NCBI GenBank assembly: GCA_029260375.1
Contig: JAJDDI010000047.1
Location: forward strand, 1-64,000
DNA length: 64,000 nt
Direction of reading: 5' to 3'
DNA from: Phycisphaerales bacterium
GTDB lineage: Bacteria > Planctomycetota > Phycisphaerae > Phycisphaerales > UBA1924
Below the pieces are notes generated by a model. The model saw nothing but the letters and a program-made list of their open reading frames with translations, did not search any database and was not told the origin of the DNA. The first letter of the stretch is position 1. Every line of letters begins with the position of its first letter. A program made the translations under genes and the position numbers. Below, in pieces: positions 2,229-29,157 of this stretch.

Positions 2229-2292
2229 GCCCCTGCGGGGTGTGGTCGGAACGCGGACGCCACCCTACGATTGTCTGGAATGATTCTAACTC

Positions 2293-2312
2293 TCAGGACG
2301 AACTTGTCCTGA
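2293..2312. promoter_or_regulatory. Inverted repeat upstream of iscS, candidate operator
   Basis: Seven-base arms TCAGGAC (2293-2299) and GTCCTGA (2306-2312) are a perfect inverted repeat around a 6-base spacer. It lies 54 bases before the cysteine desulfurase start, in a stretch noticeably more A/T-rich than its surroundings. Iron-sulfur cluster operons are often controlled by Rrf2-family repressors binding dyads here. The assignment to such a regulator is inference; none is encoded nearby. Confidence 0.4.
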
Positions 2313-2365
2313 ATTGGCGATCCCGGCGCGTCCCCTGCGTCGGGCGGATGGCTGGAGCCCGATCG

Positions 2366-3607
2366 ATGACACTGAAGCTTCCGATCTACATGGACCACGC
2401 CGCGACGACGCCGTGCGATCCCCGCGTCGTCGAGGCGATGCTGCCCTACTTCACGGAGAAGTTCGGCAACCCCGGCTCGCGCAACCACTCCTTCGGGTGG
2501 GAGGCGGAGGACGCCGTGGACAACGCCAGGCGCCAGGTCGCCTCGCTCATCGGCGCCGACCGCAAGGAGATCATCTTCACGTCGGGCTCGACCGAGAGCA
2601 ACAACCTGGCGATCAAGGGCGCGGCCAACATGTACCAGAAGGCCGGCCCGGGCGAGGGCAAGCCGCGCGGGCACATCATCACGGAGATCATCGAGCACAA
2701 GGCCGTGCTCGACCCGTGCAAGCGCCTCGAGAAGGAAGGCTTCGACGTCACCTACCTCGAGCCAGGGCCCGACGGCGTGATCACCCGCGCCATGGTCGAG
2801 AGCGCGATGCGCGACGACACCATTCTCGTCACCATCATGTGGGCCAACAACGAGATCGGGGTCATCAGTGAGATCCCCGAGATCGGCAAGCTCTGCCACG
2901 AGAAGAACGTCGTCTTCCACACCGACGCGACGCAGTGGGTCGGCAAGGCCCCCACCGACGTCAACGCCGACAACATCGACCTGCTCTCCATGAGCGGTCA
3001 CAAGATCTACGGGCCCAAGGGCGTTGGCGCGCTGTACGTGCGTCGGCGTCGCCCGCGCATCCGCCTCGTCGCGCTGCAGGAGGGCGGCGGGCAGGAGCGC
3101 GGCTTCCGCTCGGGCACCCTCAACGTCACGGGCGTCGTGGGCCTGGGCAAGGCGTGCGAGCTGTGCGCCGCGGAGATGGACAGCGAGCGAGACCGCCTGC
3201 TCGCCCTCCGCAAGAAGATCGAGGACAAGGTCGTCAGCGAGCTGGACGTCGTCCAGGTCAACGGGCACCCCGAGCGGCGCATGCCCCACCTGACCAACAT
3301 CTCCTTCGGCTTCGTCGAGGGCGAGAGCCTGATGATGGCGACCAAGGAGATCGCGATGAGCTCGGGCTCGGCCTGCACAAGCGCCAGCCTCGAGCCCAGC
3401 TACGTGCTCAAGGGCCTGGGCGTGGGCGACGATCTGGCCCACAGCTCGCTGCGCATCAGCCTCGGTCGCTGGACGACCGAGGAGGAGGTCGATTACGCGG
3501 CCGACAAAATCGTCGAAGCGGTCCGCAAGCTGCGCGACCTGAGCCCGCTCTACGACATGCACAAGGAAGGCATCGACGTCTCCAAGATCGAGTGGCAAGC
3601 CCACTAA
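2366..3607 (+). CDS. iscS: Cysteine desulfurase (IscS/NifS class V aminotransferase)
   Basis: A PLP enzyme of 413 residues that takes sulfur from cysteine as a persulfide and passes it to the IscU scaffold. It begins [14 protein letters not shown], has the PLP lysine in [10 protein letters not shown] (about Lys213) and the persulfide cysteine in [10 protein letters not shown] (about Cys337), followed by an R-x-SLGR C-terminal signature. The ATG at 2366 is preferred because homologues begin just before the DHAATTP motif and GGAG lies upstream; a longer reading from 2240 would add 42 unlikely residues. It is followed 31 bases later by iscU. The order iscS-iscU-iscA marks an ISC/NIF-type assembly cluster. 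Confidence 0.95.
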
Positions 3608-3638
3608 TCCAGATCCTCTCACAGGCAAGGAGCCTGAC

Positions 3639-4043
3639 ATGGCATACAGCGACAAAGTCATCCAGCACTACGAGAAGCCCAACAACGTCGGCAACTTCGG
3701 CACCACCGCCGAAGTGAAGCAGCGCAAGGACGTCGGCGTGGGGATCGTCGGCGCCCCCGAGTGCGGCGACGTGATGCAGCTCCAGATCAAGGTTGACGAC
3801 CAGGGCAACATCGAGGACGCCAGGTTCAAGTGCTTCGGCTGCGGCTCGGCCATCGCCTCATCCTCCCTCGCCACCGAGTGGCTCAAGGGACGCACCGTGG
3901 ACGAGGGCCTGCAGATCAAGAACACGCAGATCGTCGAGGAGCTGAGCCTCCCCCCGGTCAAGATCCACTGCTCGGTCTTGGCCGAGGACGCGATCCACGC
4001 CGCGATCGCCGACTACAAGAAGAAGAACGGCATCGAGAACTGA
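3639..4043 (+). CDS. iscU: Iron-sulfur cluster scaffold protein IscU/NifU-N
   Basis: A 134-residue scaffold on which [2Fe-2S] and [4Fe-4S] clusters are built. The three canonical ligands are visible: Cys42 in PECGDVM with Asp44, Cys68 in CFGCGSAIAS and Cys111 in IHCSVLAEDAI. An extra cysteine (Cys65) precedes the second ligand. The length matches stand-alone IscU rather than full NifU, so the NifU C-terminal domain is absent. It lies directly after the desulfurase and before the IscA-type carrier. Confidence 0.95.
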   Translation: MAYSDKVIQHYEKPNNVGNFGTTAEVKQRKDVGVGIVGAPECGDVMQLQIKVDDQGNIEDARFKCFGCGSAIASSSLATEWLKGRTVDEGLQIKNTQIVEELSLPPVKIHCSVLAEDAIHAAIADYKKKNGIEN

Positions 4044-4173
4044 AACCCCAGAGCACCCCACACACTTCTCGGACCGCCCGGGCCCGAATCCGGGGTCCGG
4101 GTCGAGCCCGCGGGCGAACTGACCGACAATCGCGTGCGTAGAATCCCACGCAGGGACGCACGGAGACCAGACC

Positions 4174-4536
4174 ATGAGCACCCAGACCGAGACCGCGACA
4201 CAGAACGACATCATCCTGACCGAGGGCGCCGCCCGCGAGGTGAAGAAGATCGTCGCCGAGCAGGAACTCGACGCGAGCAAAGTCCGCCTGCGCGTGGGCG
4301 TCAAGGGCGGCGGCTGCTCGGGCTTTAGCTACATCCTGGACCTGACCGAGACCCAGAAGGACTCGGACGAGGCCTTCGAGCAGCACGGGGTCACGATGAT
4401 CTGCGACCCCAAGAGCCTGCTCTACCTCTCGGGCACCACCGTGGATTTCAAGGATGAGATCATGGGCCGCGGGTTTGTCTTCACGAACCCCAACGCGACG
4501 ACCTCCTGCGGCTGCGGCTCCAGCTTCGCCGTCTGA
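4174..4536 (+). CDS. iscA: IscA/HesB-family iron-sulfur carrier (A-type)
   Basis: A 120-residue A-type carrier with the three conserved cysteines Cys48 (KGGGCSGFSY), Cys112 and Cys114 (SCGCGSSF) that hold iron or a cluster for delivery to target enzymes. It follows iscU after a 130-base gap, so it may have its own promoter; a TAGAAT hexamer at about 4138 is a possible -10. A terminator follows the gene. It could equally be called ErpA or SufA; the subtype cannot be separated by eye. Confidence 0.9.
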   Translation: MSTQTETATQNDIILTEGAAREVKKIVAEQELDASKVRLRVGVKGGGCSGFSYILDLTETQKDSDEAFEQHGVTMICDPKSLLYLSGTTVDFKDEIMGRGFVFTNPNATTSCGCGSSFAV

Positions 4537-4568
4537 TCCGATGTGATCGCAGCCAGAACTCCTCCGAG

Positions 4569-4592
4569 CACGCCCCCCGTGGGCGTGTTTTT
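4569..4592 (+). terminator. Intrinsic terminator after iscA
   Basis: Stem CACGCCC (4569-4575) with GGGCGTG (4581-4587), loop CCCGT, followed by five T. It ends the iron-sulfur transcript before the ACT-domain gene. Confidence 0.75.
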
Positions 4593-4740
4593 CATGGCGG
4601 AGGTTGTCCGCCCGCCGGTGACGCTGGTAGATTGGGGTGTTGGCGTGGAGGAGCAGGGATGTCTCCTCGGGGTGGGTATCCTTCCCGGGGTCGTGCGTGG
4701 GCGAGTCCGCCCGTGCCGTTGCATTGAGGGGAGGGAACGG

Positions 4741-5220
4741 ATGAGCAGCGAGGCAGTGGCTCCCGAGACCGCGCGTGGGTTTTCGCCGCCGACCGTGACG
4801 CAGTTCAGCGTCTTTCTCTCCAACAAGGTCGGCAAGCTGCTGGATCTTGTCGAGAACTTCGAGGAGTCCCCTTGTCACATCTGCGCCCTGTCCGTGCATG
4901 AGGCCTCGGACCACGCGGTGGTGCGCCTCATCGCCAACAACGCCCAGCTGGCCAAGAAGCTGCTGCGTGAGGACGGGCTCCCGTTCGCCGAGCACGACGT
5001 GCTCGTGGTGGAGCTGGGCGAGGGGTGCACGCTCTCGGGCATGTGCCTGAGCCTGCTGGGAGCGGAGCTGAACATCCACTTCGCGTACCCGCTGATGGTC
5101 AAGCCCAACGGCGCCGCGACCATCGCCCTGGCCGTGGACGACCCCACGCTGGGCGGGCAGATCCTGCGGCGCAAGGGGTTCCGCCTGTTCGGCGAGGCCG
5201 ACCTGCCCACACACACCTAA
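4741..5220 (+). CDS. ACT-domain protein
   Basis: A 159-residue protein that reads as an ACT-type small-molecule-binding protein: a beta-alpha-beta segment beginning TQFSVFLSNKVGKLLDLV, a second repeat with HAVVRLIANNAQLAKKLL, and a C-terminal repeat ending in GGQILRRKGFRLFGEADL. ACT domains sense amino acids or related ligands; no catalytic domain is attached, so it may be a stand-alone regulator. The ATG at 4741 has GAGGGGAGGG just upstream; a reading from 4543 would overlap the preceding terminator. Function is otherwise unknown. Confidence 0.75.
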   Translation: MSSEAVAPETARGFSPPTVTQFSVFLSNKVGKLLDLVENFEESPCHICALSVHEASDHAVVRLIANNAQLAKKLLREDGLPFAEHDVLVVELGEGCTLSGMCLSLLGAELNIHFAYPLMVKPNGAATIALAVDDPTLGGQILRRKGFRLFGEADLPTHT

Positions 5221-5406
5221 CAGACCTGCCCGGTTCGTACTCCTCGATTCGTCCGCATTTGCCCGGGCGACGCAACAAGTCGAGCGGGTAGGCTGTTTGC
5301 ACTGAGAAGGCGCCGCGTGGAGCGGCGCCAGAGTCGCCCTCACGCCGCCACCGCCAGACGTGCAACCACGCCTACCGAGCGGCCAGACCACACCAAGGAG
5401 CACCCG

Positions 5407-6501
5407 ATGACCCGATCTCTCTCCGCCGCGCTGCCCGCGACCCTGATCGCCGCGAGCGCGTTCTTCGCCAGCCCCGTGTACGCGGGCCCCGACTGCGGCG
5501 AGGACTGCGCCAAGGCGTGCTGCGCCCAGAAGCAGGCCTGCGCCGACGACTGCGCCAAGGCGTGCTGCGTCGATCTGACGAACCTGATCCCGGACCTGAC
5601 GATGCCGGAGCTGCAGATCGGCGCGACCGCCCCCAAGCTGCACCTGGCCCAGTTCATCAAGGGCGACTCGGTTGAACAGTTCGAGAAGGGACGGACCTAC
5701 GTCGTCGAGTTCTGGGCCACCTGGTGCGGCCCGTGCGTCAAGGCCTTCCCGCACCTTTCCGAGCTGCAGAAGAAACTGCACGAGGACGTCACGTTCATGG
5801 GCGTGAACGTCTGGGACACCGAGAAGGGTGAGTCGCAGGCCCAGCGCATCGAGCGCGTCTCCGAGTTCGTCGGCGAGCAAGGCGACAAAATGTCCTACAC
5901 CGTTGCGATCGAGGACGGCAACAAAATGGCCAAGACCTGGCTCAAGCCCGCCGGGCAGAACGGCATCCCCGCCGCGTTCATCATCAACGGCGAGGGCAAG
6001 GTCGCCTGGATCGGTCACCCGATGAACATGGATAAGCCGCTCGAGCAGATCGTCGCGGGCGAGTACGACATCGAGGCGGGCGCCAAGGAGCTCCGGAACC
6101 AGATCGTGGCCCAGGCCGGCTTCCGCGCGTTCGCCATGGGCATCATGAGCCCGGACGAGGCGGAAGCCAAGAAGGCCTACACCCTCGGTCGCGCCCTGGC
6201 GGCCCAGACCTTCTCCGACAACGCGATGTACCTCAACGCCCTCGCGTGGCCCGTGCTCGACAACGATCGCATCACGCACCGAGACTACAAGTTCGCCAAG
6301 GACCTGGCGTACAAGGCCGCCGAACTCACCGAGTGGAACGACGCGGGCGTGCTCGACACCTACGCCCTGGCGCAGTACAAGACGGGCGATGTCGCGGGCG
6401 CCATCAAGACCCAGACCAAGGCCGTCGAGCTCACCCCCGAGGACGAGCGCGGGCGCGAGGAGATGGTCGAACGCCTGGAGATGTTCAAGGCCGAGGGCTG
6501 A
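5407..6501 (+). CDS. Secreted TlpA-like thioredoxin-fold protein with Cys-rich N-terminus
   Basis: A 364-residue exported protein. The start at 5407 (AAGGAG 8 bases upstream) gives a signal peptide ending PVYA at residue 26. The mature N-terminus carries a duplicated cysteine motif, C(G/A)(E/D)DCAKACC, at residues 30-39 and 45-54, giving eight cysteines in 25 residues. The thioredoxin fold follows with EFWATWCGPCVKAF (CxxC at 107-110) and a cis-Pro region near NGIPAAFII. The C-terminal ~120 residues are helical and TPR-like (AVELTPEDE). It is probably a periplasmic thiol oxidoreductase; the Cys-rich head could bind metal or be disulfide-bonded. trxB lies just downstream on the opposite strand. 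Confidence 0.85.
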   Translation: MTRSLSAALPATLIAASAFFASPVYAGPDCGEDCAKACCAQKQACADDCAKACCVDLTNLIPDLTMPELQIGATAPKLHLAQFIKGDSVEQFEKGRTYVVEFWATWCGPCVKAFPHLSELQKKLHEDVTFMGVNVWDTEKGESQAQRIERVSEFVGEQGDKMSYTVAIEDGNKMAKTWLKPAGQNGIPAAFIINGEGKVAWIGHPMNMDKPLEQIVAGEYDIEAGAKELRNQIVAQAGFRAFAMGIMSPDEAEAKKAYTLGRALAAQTFSDNAMYLNALAWPVLDNDRITHRDYKFAKDLAYKAAELTEWNDAGVLDTYALAQYKTGDVAGAIKTQTKAVELTPEDERGREEMVERLEMFKAEG

Positions 6502-27821: not shown

Positions 27822-28454
27822 TCAGGGAGTCCGCAGGAGCGCACCGCTCGGAACCGCGAGTGAGCCGGAGTAGCCTGCCCGATCGATCGCGTTCAAAGCC
27901 GCCTGCGGATCGAAGGACCCGTGAGGGTCGGTCTTCAACTCGGCAACACCCTGCGTGTACGACACCCGCGCATCAAGAACCCCCGGAACCCTGGAGAGAG
28001 AGTCCTCGAGGTGAACCGAGCAGGCTTCGCATGTCATGCCCTCGATGGAGACGCTGATCAAGTCCGCATCGATTGCGACGAACTTCGACGAATCACCCCT
28101 GGAGAGGAGTGCCCCCGCATACCTGGGAAAGCTCGCAAAGGCAATGACGACGATCGCGGAAACCCAGAGCATCACCTTCGAGAAACGCTGCGCACGCGAG
28201 GTCGATGTTTCACATCCGCAGGACGAGTCGCGCTTTCGGGCGGCGAAGTACACCGAGTAGAAGCCGAATGCGAGCAGCGCGCTCGCGACGATCAGGAACG
28301 CCAGTCGGTACCGCTCGAACCAGGCGGAGAGTCCGCCCGCCGAAAGACCAAACCCCATGAGCAGCAGCGGGAGCCAGCAGCACGCCGACGAGGCGATCGC
28401 AGACAGAACAGAGCCGATGGCGCCGAGTCCTGCCTTGCTGCGTGTCACACTCAC
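27822..28454 (-). CDS. MerT-MerP fusion, mercuric ion transport (MerTP)
   Basis: A 210-residue fusion of an inner-membrane mercury transporter and a heavy-metal-associated (HMA) domain. The MerT part has three membrane segments, the first with the vicinal pair SSACCWLPLLL (Cys25-Cys26), and a cytoplasmic SSCGCET (Cys79, Cys81). The HMA part starts near residue 130 with SIEGMTCEACSVHLEDSL (Cys142, Cys145). It would take up Hg(II) and hand it along cysteine pairs. It starts with GTG at 28454, overlapping the upstream stop by four bases (GTGA), so it is translationally coupled. No merA reductase is seen. Confidence 0.88.
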   Translation of the reverse strand: MSVTRSKAGLGAIGSVLSAIASSACCWLPLLLMGFGLSAGGLSAWFERYRLAFLIVASALLAFGFYSVYFAARKRDSSCGCETSTSRAQRFSKVMLWVSAIVVIAFASFPRYAGALLSRGDSSKFVAIDADLISVSIEGMTCEACSVHLEDSLSRVPGVLDARVSYTQGVAELKTDPHGSFDPQAALNAIDRAGYSGSLAVPSGALLRTP

Positions 28455-28819
28455 GCGCAGCACCCGCTTTCGTTGTCGTCGTCGCTCAGCTCTTGTGGAT
28501 CGTGGTCGCGTTCCAAGAGTGCGGCAGCGATCATCTCTCGCGGGGGCAGCCCGTTCTCGCCGTGAAAGATTCGGCAACTCATCGCGTAGTCGTCCCGGAT
28601 GCGAGCGGCGGGTTCGATATCGACCCCGCGCACCTGGATCGTCGGCGAGCCGAGCATGCGCTCGCGCACCGCGTCCTCGGCCGACAAGACCTTGACCTCG
28701 CTCAGCTCGATACGCACGCTCAACTCATCGGCGATCTCGCGGACAAGAGAAACGATCGGTTTGTGGTTCGGGCATCCCTCGAAGTGCACGATTCTGACTT
28801 GCATCTGGTTCTCTTTCAT
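28451..28819 (-). CDS. Thioredoxin-like protein of mercury operons
   Basis: A 122-residue protein beginning VRIVHFEGCPNHKPIVSLV, a strand followed by a single-cysteine thioredoxin-like active site (Cys16), then LGSPTIQVRGVDIEP typical of the cis-Pro loop region, and a C-terminal SGCCA. Proteins of this type are often encoded next to merT and are sometimes misnamed alkylmercury lyase; MerB catalytic features are not seen. The gene overlaps the regulator stop by ATGA and the MerTP start by GTGA, giving a tight three-gene operon. A role in binding or relaying metal thiolates is inference. Confidence 0.75.
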   Translation of the reverse strand: MKENQMQVRIVHFEGCPNHKPIVSLVREIADELSVRIELSEVKVLSAEDAVRERMLGSPTIQVRGVDIEPAARIRDDYAMSCRIFHGENGLPPREMIAAALLERDHDPQELSDDDNESGCCA

Positions 28820-29124
28820 GATCGCTTGAGCATCGAGGCCAGGGCTTTCATGGCCGCGTCGAACCGTTGGTCAGCGTCTGCGGCGCCGCACTGCGTCAGG
28901 CAGAGACGCAGCTCTTCTTCCACGATCAGGACCGTCACTCGATTGAGCGCTGCCTTGATCGCCGCGATCTGCGTCAAGAGTTCGTCTGCGCACCGCTGCT
29001 CCCCGATCATGCACTTGACCGAGCCGACATGCCCTTCAATTCGGCTTAGGGCGCGAATCAGCGAGCGGGCTTGATCATCGTCGAGATAGGCGCCCGTCCG
29101 GCGCACTTTGGAGGGTGTAGGCAT
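28816..29124 (-). CDS. CsoR/RcnR/FrmR-family metal-sensing repressor
   Basis: A 102-residue all-helical repressor of the DUF156 family. The core reads LSRIEGHVGSVKCMIGEQR followed by LTQIAAIKAALNRV. Compared with copper-sensing CsoR, the first ligand cysteine is shifted by one residue (Cys45), the ligand histidine is replaced by Glu71, the second cysteine is kept (Cys75) and an extra Cys79 follows. The ligand set is thus thiolate-rich, which would suit Hg(II). A G/C-tract palindrome lies 8 bases upstream of the ATG. A TATTCT hexamer ends 7 bases before the start, so the transcript may be nearly leaderless. It heads the mercury operon. Confidence 0.82.
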   Translation of the reverse strand: MPTPSKVRRTGAYLDDDQARSLIRALSRIEGHVGSVKCMIGEQRCADELLTQIAAIKAALNRVTVLIVEEELRLCLTQCGAADADQRFDAAMKALASMLKRS

Positions 29125-29131
29125 CTCCGTA

Positions 29132-29157
29132 GAATATCCCCCCCGGGGGGATTATTC
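29132..29157. promoter_or_regulatory. Palindromic operator for the CsoR-family repressor
   Basis: GAATAT, seven C, six G, then ATTATTC forms a near-perfect dyad with one extra base on the right arm. CsoR/RcnR-family operators typically combine an A/T-rich inverted end with a central G/C tract, as here. It lies directly before the repressor start and next to the -10 TATTCT, so binding would block its own operon. Confidence 0.7.

Follow-up and report, generated by a model that had tools for sequence, protein, structure and literature searches.

A CsoR-family repressor gene heads a mer-type transport operon in a Phycisphaerales bacterium

Accounts of mercury regulation have so far involved two families of regulators, MerR and ArsR. 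MerR is an activator-repressor that works through the shape of the promoter. According to passages of Boyd and Barkay 2012, which covered 272 mer operons, merR was present in 195 and arsR in 22, and one or the other was found in all but two taxa (PMC3466566). The regulators named in the main text of that survey and of another from 2021 (PMC8261052) are MerR or ArsR, and the word CsoR is absent from both main texts. No mer operon run by a CsoR protein was found in the titles and abstract openings of the literature searched, which is thin on subscription journals. As described in part of PMC5027573, the metal site of MerR consists of three cysteines, one of them contributed by the other subunit. 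CsoR-family sensors are compared at positions W, X, Y, Z and A, following the definitions in passages of PMC4235346 and PMC5016687. Positions X-Y-Z are occupied by Cys-His-Cys in the solved structures of InrS, GtCsoR, SlCsoR and CsoRGz, and by Cys-Asn-Cys in that of SpCstR. A passage of PMC4235346 also warns that the sensed metal is not predictable from the Cys/His pattern.

The DNA analysed here, referred to as the window, is a stretch of 64,000 nucleotides from a Phycisphaerales genome assembly (3,385,897 bases, 99 contigs, 91.8% complete). Three minus-strand genes run from position 29124 down to 27822. The first, csoR (28816-29124), codes for a 102-aa repressor of the CsoR/RcnR family (PF02583). 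It is followed by a DF-family gene (28451-28819), whose 122-aa product is the Cys version of a (seleno)protein with a thioredoxin-like fold, identified with the NF049942 profile, and by a gene with a GTG start (27822-28454) that encodes a MerTP-like MerT-MerP fusion of about 210 aa recognized by PF02411 and PF00403. The csoR stop and the DF start share the four bases ATGA (28816-28819), and the DF stop and the merTP start share GTGA (28451-28454), which confirmed the four-base coupling of the CsoR/RcnR-family, thioredoxin-like and MerT-MerP genes proposed in the first-pass annotation. None of the three genes is disrupted; their ends overlap and their cysteines are conserved. The GC content of the operon is 62% versus 68% for the window. 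The repressor scored 60.9 bits against PF02583 (cut-off 22.8) and was the sole match to this profile found in its own genome; the proposal that a CsoR-family regulator takes the place of the usual MerR was thus upheld. The locus shares MerT and MerP homologues with the mer operons controlled by MerR or ArsR, and its sister loci have MerA and MerC too. Unlike those operons, it has a CsoR-family regulator instead of MerR or ArsR, a fused MerT-MerP, a DF gene between the regulator and MerTP, and no merA. We consider it a mer-type transport operon under CsoR-type control with high confidence. A scan of GTDB contigs (18 loci) identified other Phycisphaerales MAGs as the nearest relatives by operon, and the order csoR-DF-merTP recurs in loci L002 and L003 (genomes G001 and G002).

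Directly before csoR lies an operator-like perfect palindrome, ATCCCCCC(C)GGGGGGAT (29136-29152), which is separated from the ATG of csoR by 11 bases and has the form of a CsoR/RcnR operator, a pseudo-palindrome with a run of at least four G/C. It is narrower than the 29132-29157 site named in the first-pass annotation. The 17-mer ATCCCCCCNGGGGGGAT has one exact occurrence in the 3,385,897-base assembly and one further site with 2 mismatches. The chance expectation in the window is 0.20 for sites with up to three mismatches to a similar pattern, the palindrome being scored on both strands. A G/C-tract palindromic operator overlapping the promoter had been predicted; the palindrome was there, but the overlap was not recovered, as a sigma-70 scan of the window found no promoter. 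In L010, a relative from the Nitrospirae, TTGACA and TATATT flank the palindrome, which exactly fills the spacer between them. Exact searches located a similar palindrome before csoR in L002, L003, L004, L006, L007, L008, L009, L010, L011 and L104, and L005 has a weaker form with four G. Locus L008 contains three copies, at 2347, 3629 and 4942, preceding a DF-like gene, a CopZ-MerTP gene and csoR. This operator type marks the family and not the branch of the repressor described below, because L012, L042 and L049, which are outside that branch, also carry it.

The monomer structure model of the repressor (mean pLDDT 79.4) has helices at residues 16-41, 46-78 and 84-101, and the 20 best rows of a Foldseek search with this model were all CsoR-family chains (best E 1.9e-3). 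Scores against the subgroup profiles were below the NCBIfam cut-offs: 27.2 versus 138 bits for RcnR, 21.6 versus 133 for FrmR and 41.2 versus 175 for RicR. The key residues are Cys38, Cys45, Glu71, Cys75 and Cys79; position A is Cys45, X is Ala46, Y is Glu71 and Z is Cys75, with the extra Cys79 at Z+4. Thus, position X at the start of helix 2 is occupied by Ala46, the cysteine being displaced one residue earlier to Cys45, and some members of the branch have Cys at both A and X. The window protein resembles the Cu(I) sensor CsoR of M. tuberculosis, Geobacillus and Streptomyces in its PF02583 domain, three-helix fold, Z cysteine and a C/G-tract palindrome before its own gene. It differs from the copper subgroup (Tyr, Cys, His and Cys at A, X, Y and Z) in having Cys45, Ala46 and Glu71 ahead of Cys75 and a Cys at Z+4, and its neighbours are mer genes instead of copper genes. 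The Ni(II) sensor InrS is the best PDB match by both sequence (2e-13) and fold (TM 0.63/0.73), but InrS retains Cys53-His78-Cys82 at X-Y-Z, where the window repressor has Ala46-Glu71-Cys75. With the persulfide sensor CstR it has in common the lack of His at Y and a reliance on cysteines; it departs from CstR in the displaced X cysteine, the extra cysteine and an operon with no sulfur-handling genes among its genes. Since the X cysteine is displaced, we place the protein in the family on account of its profile match, its fold and the kind of operator, but in none of the characterized subgroups.

Residues Cys45, Glu71, Cys75 and Cys79 are invariant in the window protein and nine aligned relatives (10/10). 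In a tree of 47 rows, Cys45 and Cys79 occur together in 16, which cluster with support of 100/96 and include the window repressor. The phylogeny suggested in the first-pass annotation, against known CsoR groups, placed the protein in a supported branch with distinctive cysteines. Glu71 is found in 12 of the 16 rows; this Glu-type group has support of 97/87, and all 12 of its rows carry Cys45, Glu71, Cys75 and Cys79. The sister to the 16-row branch (99/93) is a phage-borne repressor from L105 with a Thr-Cys-His-Cys pattern. Cys75 and Cys79 would be one turn apart on helix 2, as follows from the modelled helix, and Cys45 of the partner subunit could reach them. We give even chances to a three-cysteine site across two subunits. 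Such a site may represent convergence with the Hg(II) sensor MerR, the fold of which is unrelated to that of the window repressor. A separate observation concerns L106-L108 of the Chloroflexota-side group, where the CsoR proteins combine Cys-His-Cys with an extra Cys at Z+4 and no merT occurs within 1.5 kb.

The MerT-MerP of the first-pass annotation corresponds to a single gene, the last of the operon. Both domains scored above their cut-offs, PF02411 MerT with 40.1 bits (cut-off 32.9) and PF00403 HMA with 39.8 bits (cut-off 24.8), and they belong to one fused protein. This fusion is below the cut-off of the NCBIfam MerTP equivalog NF033556 (106.2 versus 180 bits). The MerT part, which has a vicinal Cys pair early in its sequence, is encoded on the minus strand at 28125-28421 (residues 13-111 of P0001), and the MerP-like heavy-metal-associated domain, with the CxxC motif GMTCEAC, at 27870-28052 on the same strand (residues 136-196); the translation P0001 includes one codon upstream of the GTG start. 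In the nearest relative, L002, merTP (3125-3753) is split across two frames by a frameshift or an assembly error.

The DF protein (P0002) scored 101.6 bits against NF049942, over the curated cut-off of 70. It differs from the family in having Cys in place of Sec and in a C-terminal Cys-Cys tail common to L002 and L003. Its cysteines are Cys16, Cys82 and Cys120-Cys121; the tail reads NESGCCA in the window, and GCC is also present in L002 and L003. This tail resembles the LSCCA end of MerA in L004, L010 and L097, and the two termini could have a common role. In L097 a MerR-type gene is followed by DF, merTP, a MerP-like gene and merA, and in L099 (2724-3701), from a genome of the same order, DF and MerTP form a single polypeptide behind a MerR-type gene. 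DF is therefore a mer component beyond the CsoR branch, as seen in these two loci. We tentatively regard it as a thiol carrier, a role put at somewhat below even chances. Locus L008 (2500-2900) has in-frame TGA at both conserved DF cysteine positions (Cys16 and Cys82), which suggests selenocysteine; a thioredoxin-like protein likewise has in-frame TGA in place of its first Cys codon in L006 (about 1885) and L008 (about 6300). SelB was over the cut-off in 3 of 11 genomes (G003, G005, the genome of L006, and G009) and was not detected in G007, the genome of L008. A search for DF in viral contigs produced no match.

The link to mercury comes from the sister loci. Another Phycisphaerales MAG (L004) has csoR-merA-merTP, with a MerA of 547 bits and a repressor with 75.6% identity to that of the window, and a Nitrospirae MAG (L010) has csoR-merTP-merC-merA followed by an ArsP_1-type permease, with a MerA of 542 bits and a repressor with 46.7% identity. 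Among the 11 genomes comprising the window's own and those of L002-L011, MerA was over the curated cut-off in two (G003 and G009), in both cases inside the csoR operon. merT is a neighbour of csoR in 10 of the 15 branch loci that could be tested and in 0 of the 24 csoR loci used for comparison (p = 4.7e-6, a value that ignores relatedness and compares unequal flanks, 1.5 kb for L039-L055 and up to 5 kb for the others). Locus L005 was dropped from this count because its contig ends inside csoR; also left out were L105, which is the sister row and has merT, and L094, which was found through MerTP, and L019, a short partial match in the 18-locus GTDB scan, was left unused. No merT was within reach in L006, L007 and L009, which have DF/HMA/thioredoxin-like genes or a thioredoxin-like gene, and L035 and L038 have HMA-thioredoxin genes only. 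The presence of merA and merC in related csoR operons strengthens the mercury reading of the window operon, and Hg(II) is, judging from gene content, the somewhat favoured candidate for its physiological signal.

A MerA profile search found no merA over the cut-off in the 91.8%-complete assembly of the window's genome. Nor was one over the cut-off in G001 or G002, from which the other two csoR-DF-merTP loci come. A MerA-like fragment on contig C94 of the window's genome (15795-15959) was rejected as merA: it begins like a dihydrolipoyl dehydrogenase, with GGVCLNWGCIPSKALL, which we take to be a motif of such enzymes, and the contig ends at 15962. C94 of this genome (G000) and C324 of G001 end at an identical point within a dihydrolipoyl-dehydrogenase-like gene.

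A sample of 392 Planctomycetota genomes included 9 further members of the same family, all without a match to the repressor, so the operon is patchily distributed. Across this sample the repressor profile matched 19 genomes at E <= 1e-12, five of them with more than 70 bits, G000 included, and G000 is the only one of the five with Glu71. MerA was over the cut-off in 4 of the 392, and all four loci have a MerR-type gene when read by eye. Within about 1.5 kb of 30 MerTP loci, ten had a MerR motif (our own pattern), two a CsoR match, one being the window, and 18 neither. The profile was found at E <= 1e-18 in 16 of 380 genomes of a Chloroflexota-side phylum (centre G425) and in 2 of 378 of a Marinimicrobia-side phylum (centre G426); 14 of these 18 matches, L106-L119, have neither the Cys45/Glu71 pattern nor merT. 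In a Nitrospirae-side group the repressor was found in 1 of 24 genomes, that of L010 itself. Plasmid searches with the repressor and with DF each returned 4 weak records, and of the DF regions L032 and L033 one has a MerR-type gene. Among viral contigs, a gene for a serine recombinase neighbours a Glu-type csoR and a CopZ-MerTP gene in L104 (IMGVR_UViG_3300041403_001804, 2291-6301), and L105 (IMGVR_UViG_3300027773_000095, 5001-6422) has csoR-merTP-CopZ between genes for a GpA-type terminase large subunit and a lambda-type portal. The L105 cassette is, from its gene neighbourhood, apparently a moron for metal handling within a module of phage head genes. The positions of both cassettes, next to a recombinase and within phage genes, indicate that they travel.

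Taken as a whole, the locus is probably a self-regulated mer-type operon in which a thiophilic metal, most likely Hg(II), would be sensed by the CsoR-fold repressor through Cys45, Cys75 and Cys79. In the proposed mechanism, the repressor would bind the C/G-tract palindrome and silence its own operon. A cytosolic thiophilic metal ion, most likely Hg(II), would then be held between two protomers, one contributing Cys45 and the other Cys75 and Cys79, in a three-thiolate site as in MerR, and the metal-loaded repressor would leave the DNA, so that MerTP and the DF protein are produced. MerTP would pass the metal from its MerP-like domain via the MerT cysteines into the cell, where the thioredoxin-fold DF protein, with Cys16, Cys82 and the C-terminal Cys-Cys tail, would receive and carry it. 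The end point would be MerA in the sister operons and could, here, be a merA missing from the assembly, sequestration by thiols or the DF protein.

The same genes could instead form a copper or silver system, in which a divergent sensor of Cu(I)/Ag(I) acts as the repressor and the metal moved by MerTP with CopZ-like domains is copper, not mercury. CopZ-type domains beside or inside MerTP in L008, L011, L104 and L105 also fit copper; zf_CopZ, the CopZ N-terminal domain, is fused to MerTP in L011 and adjoins merTP in L105. A CopZ-type motif lies in the MerTP reading frame of 14 of the 29 non-window MerTP loci of the phylum; within L066-L093, 14 of the 28 Planctomycetota loci have such a frame and look like CopZ-MerTP fusions. 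In L056 RND-type metal efflux genes, CusA/CusB-like by eye, lie beside csoR on the opposite strand. However, position A is Cys and not the second-shell Tyr that predicts Cu(I) under a rule given in a passage of PMC4235346, Glu replaces His at Y, the sister operons contain merA and merC, and there is no copper ATPase or multicopper oxidase among the three window operon genes, which makes a copper or silver system unlikely.

We find it rather less probable that the repressor is a CstR-like sensor of persulfide or thiol-reactive species, reading reactive sulfur or electrophiles through clustered cysteines after the loss of His at Y, with the operon serving a general thiol or soft-metal stress response. 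SpCstR (7mq1) also lacks His at Y, having Asn, CstR responds via cysteine modification (passages of PMC5016687 and PMC10318464), and DF and the thioredoxin-like partners have the folds of redox proteins, the active Cys being encoded by in-frame TGA in some of them. Against this, the X cysteine is displaced and SpCstR is outside the window branch in the tree, on a very long row of unsure placement. A passage of PMC10318464 describes rhodanese, sulfide:quinone oxidoreductase or sulfite exporter genes as often near CstR, and none is among the three operon genes. There is little to recommend the notion of a remnant, left by the decay of a mercury operon, with merA lost and its usefulness gone. The missing merA in its own genome, the frame change in L002 merTP and the repressor count of 0/9 in the same family agree with decay, but the intact window genes, their overlapping ends and conserved cysteines, the conserved palindrome and the recurrence of csoR-DF-merTP in L003 do not.

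Returning to the mercury-sensing operon, a broader reading is conceivable, at slightly less than even odds: a third type of mercury switch, formed by a CsoR-fold subgroup of Hg(II) repressors with a convergent three-thiolate site, in which the sensing cysteine was shifted by one residue, the histidine dropped and a cysteine gained, and which controls mer operons where a small DF (seleno)protein can take over the position of mercuric reductase. If true, mercury would join copper, nickel/cobalt, formaldehyde and persulfide among the known effectors of the CsoR family. As the ligand residues differ only slightly, and in a way specific to this branch, it would provide a clean natural test of metal choice by the CsoR fold. 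The arrangement csoR-DF-merTP without merA also raises the testable question of what role a MerT importer may have where mercuric reductase is not found.
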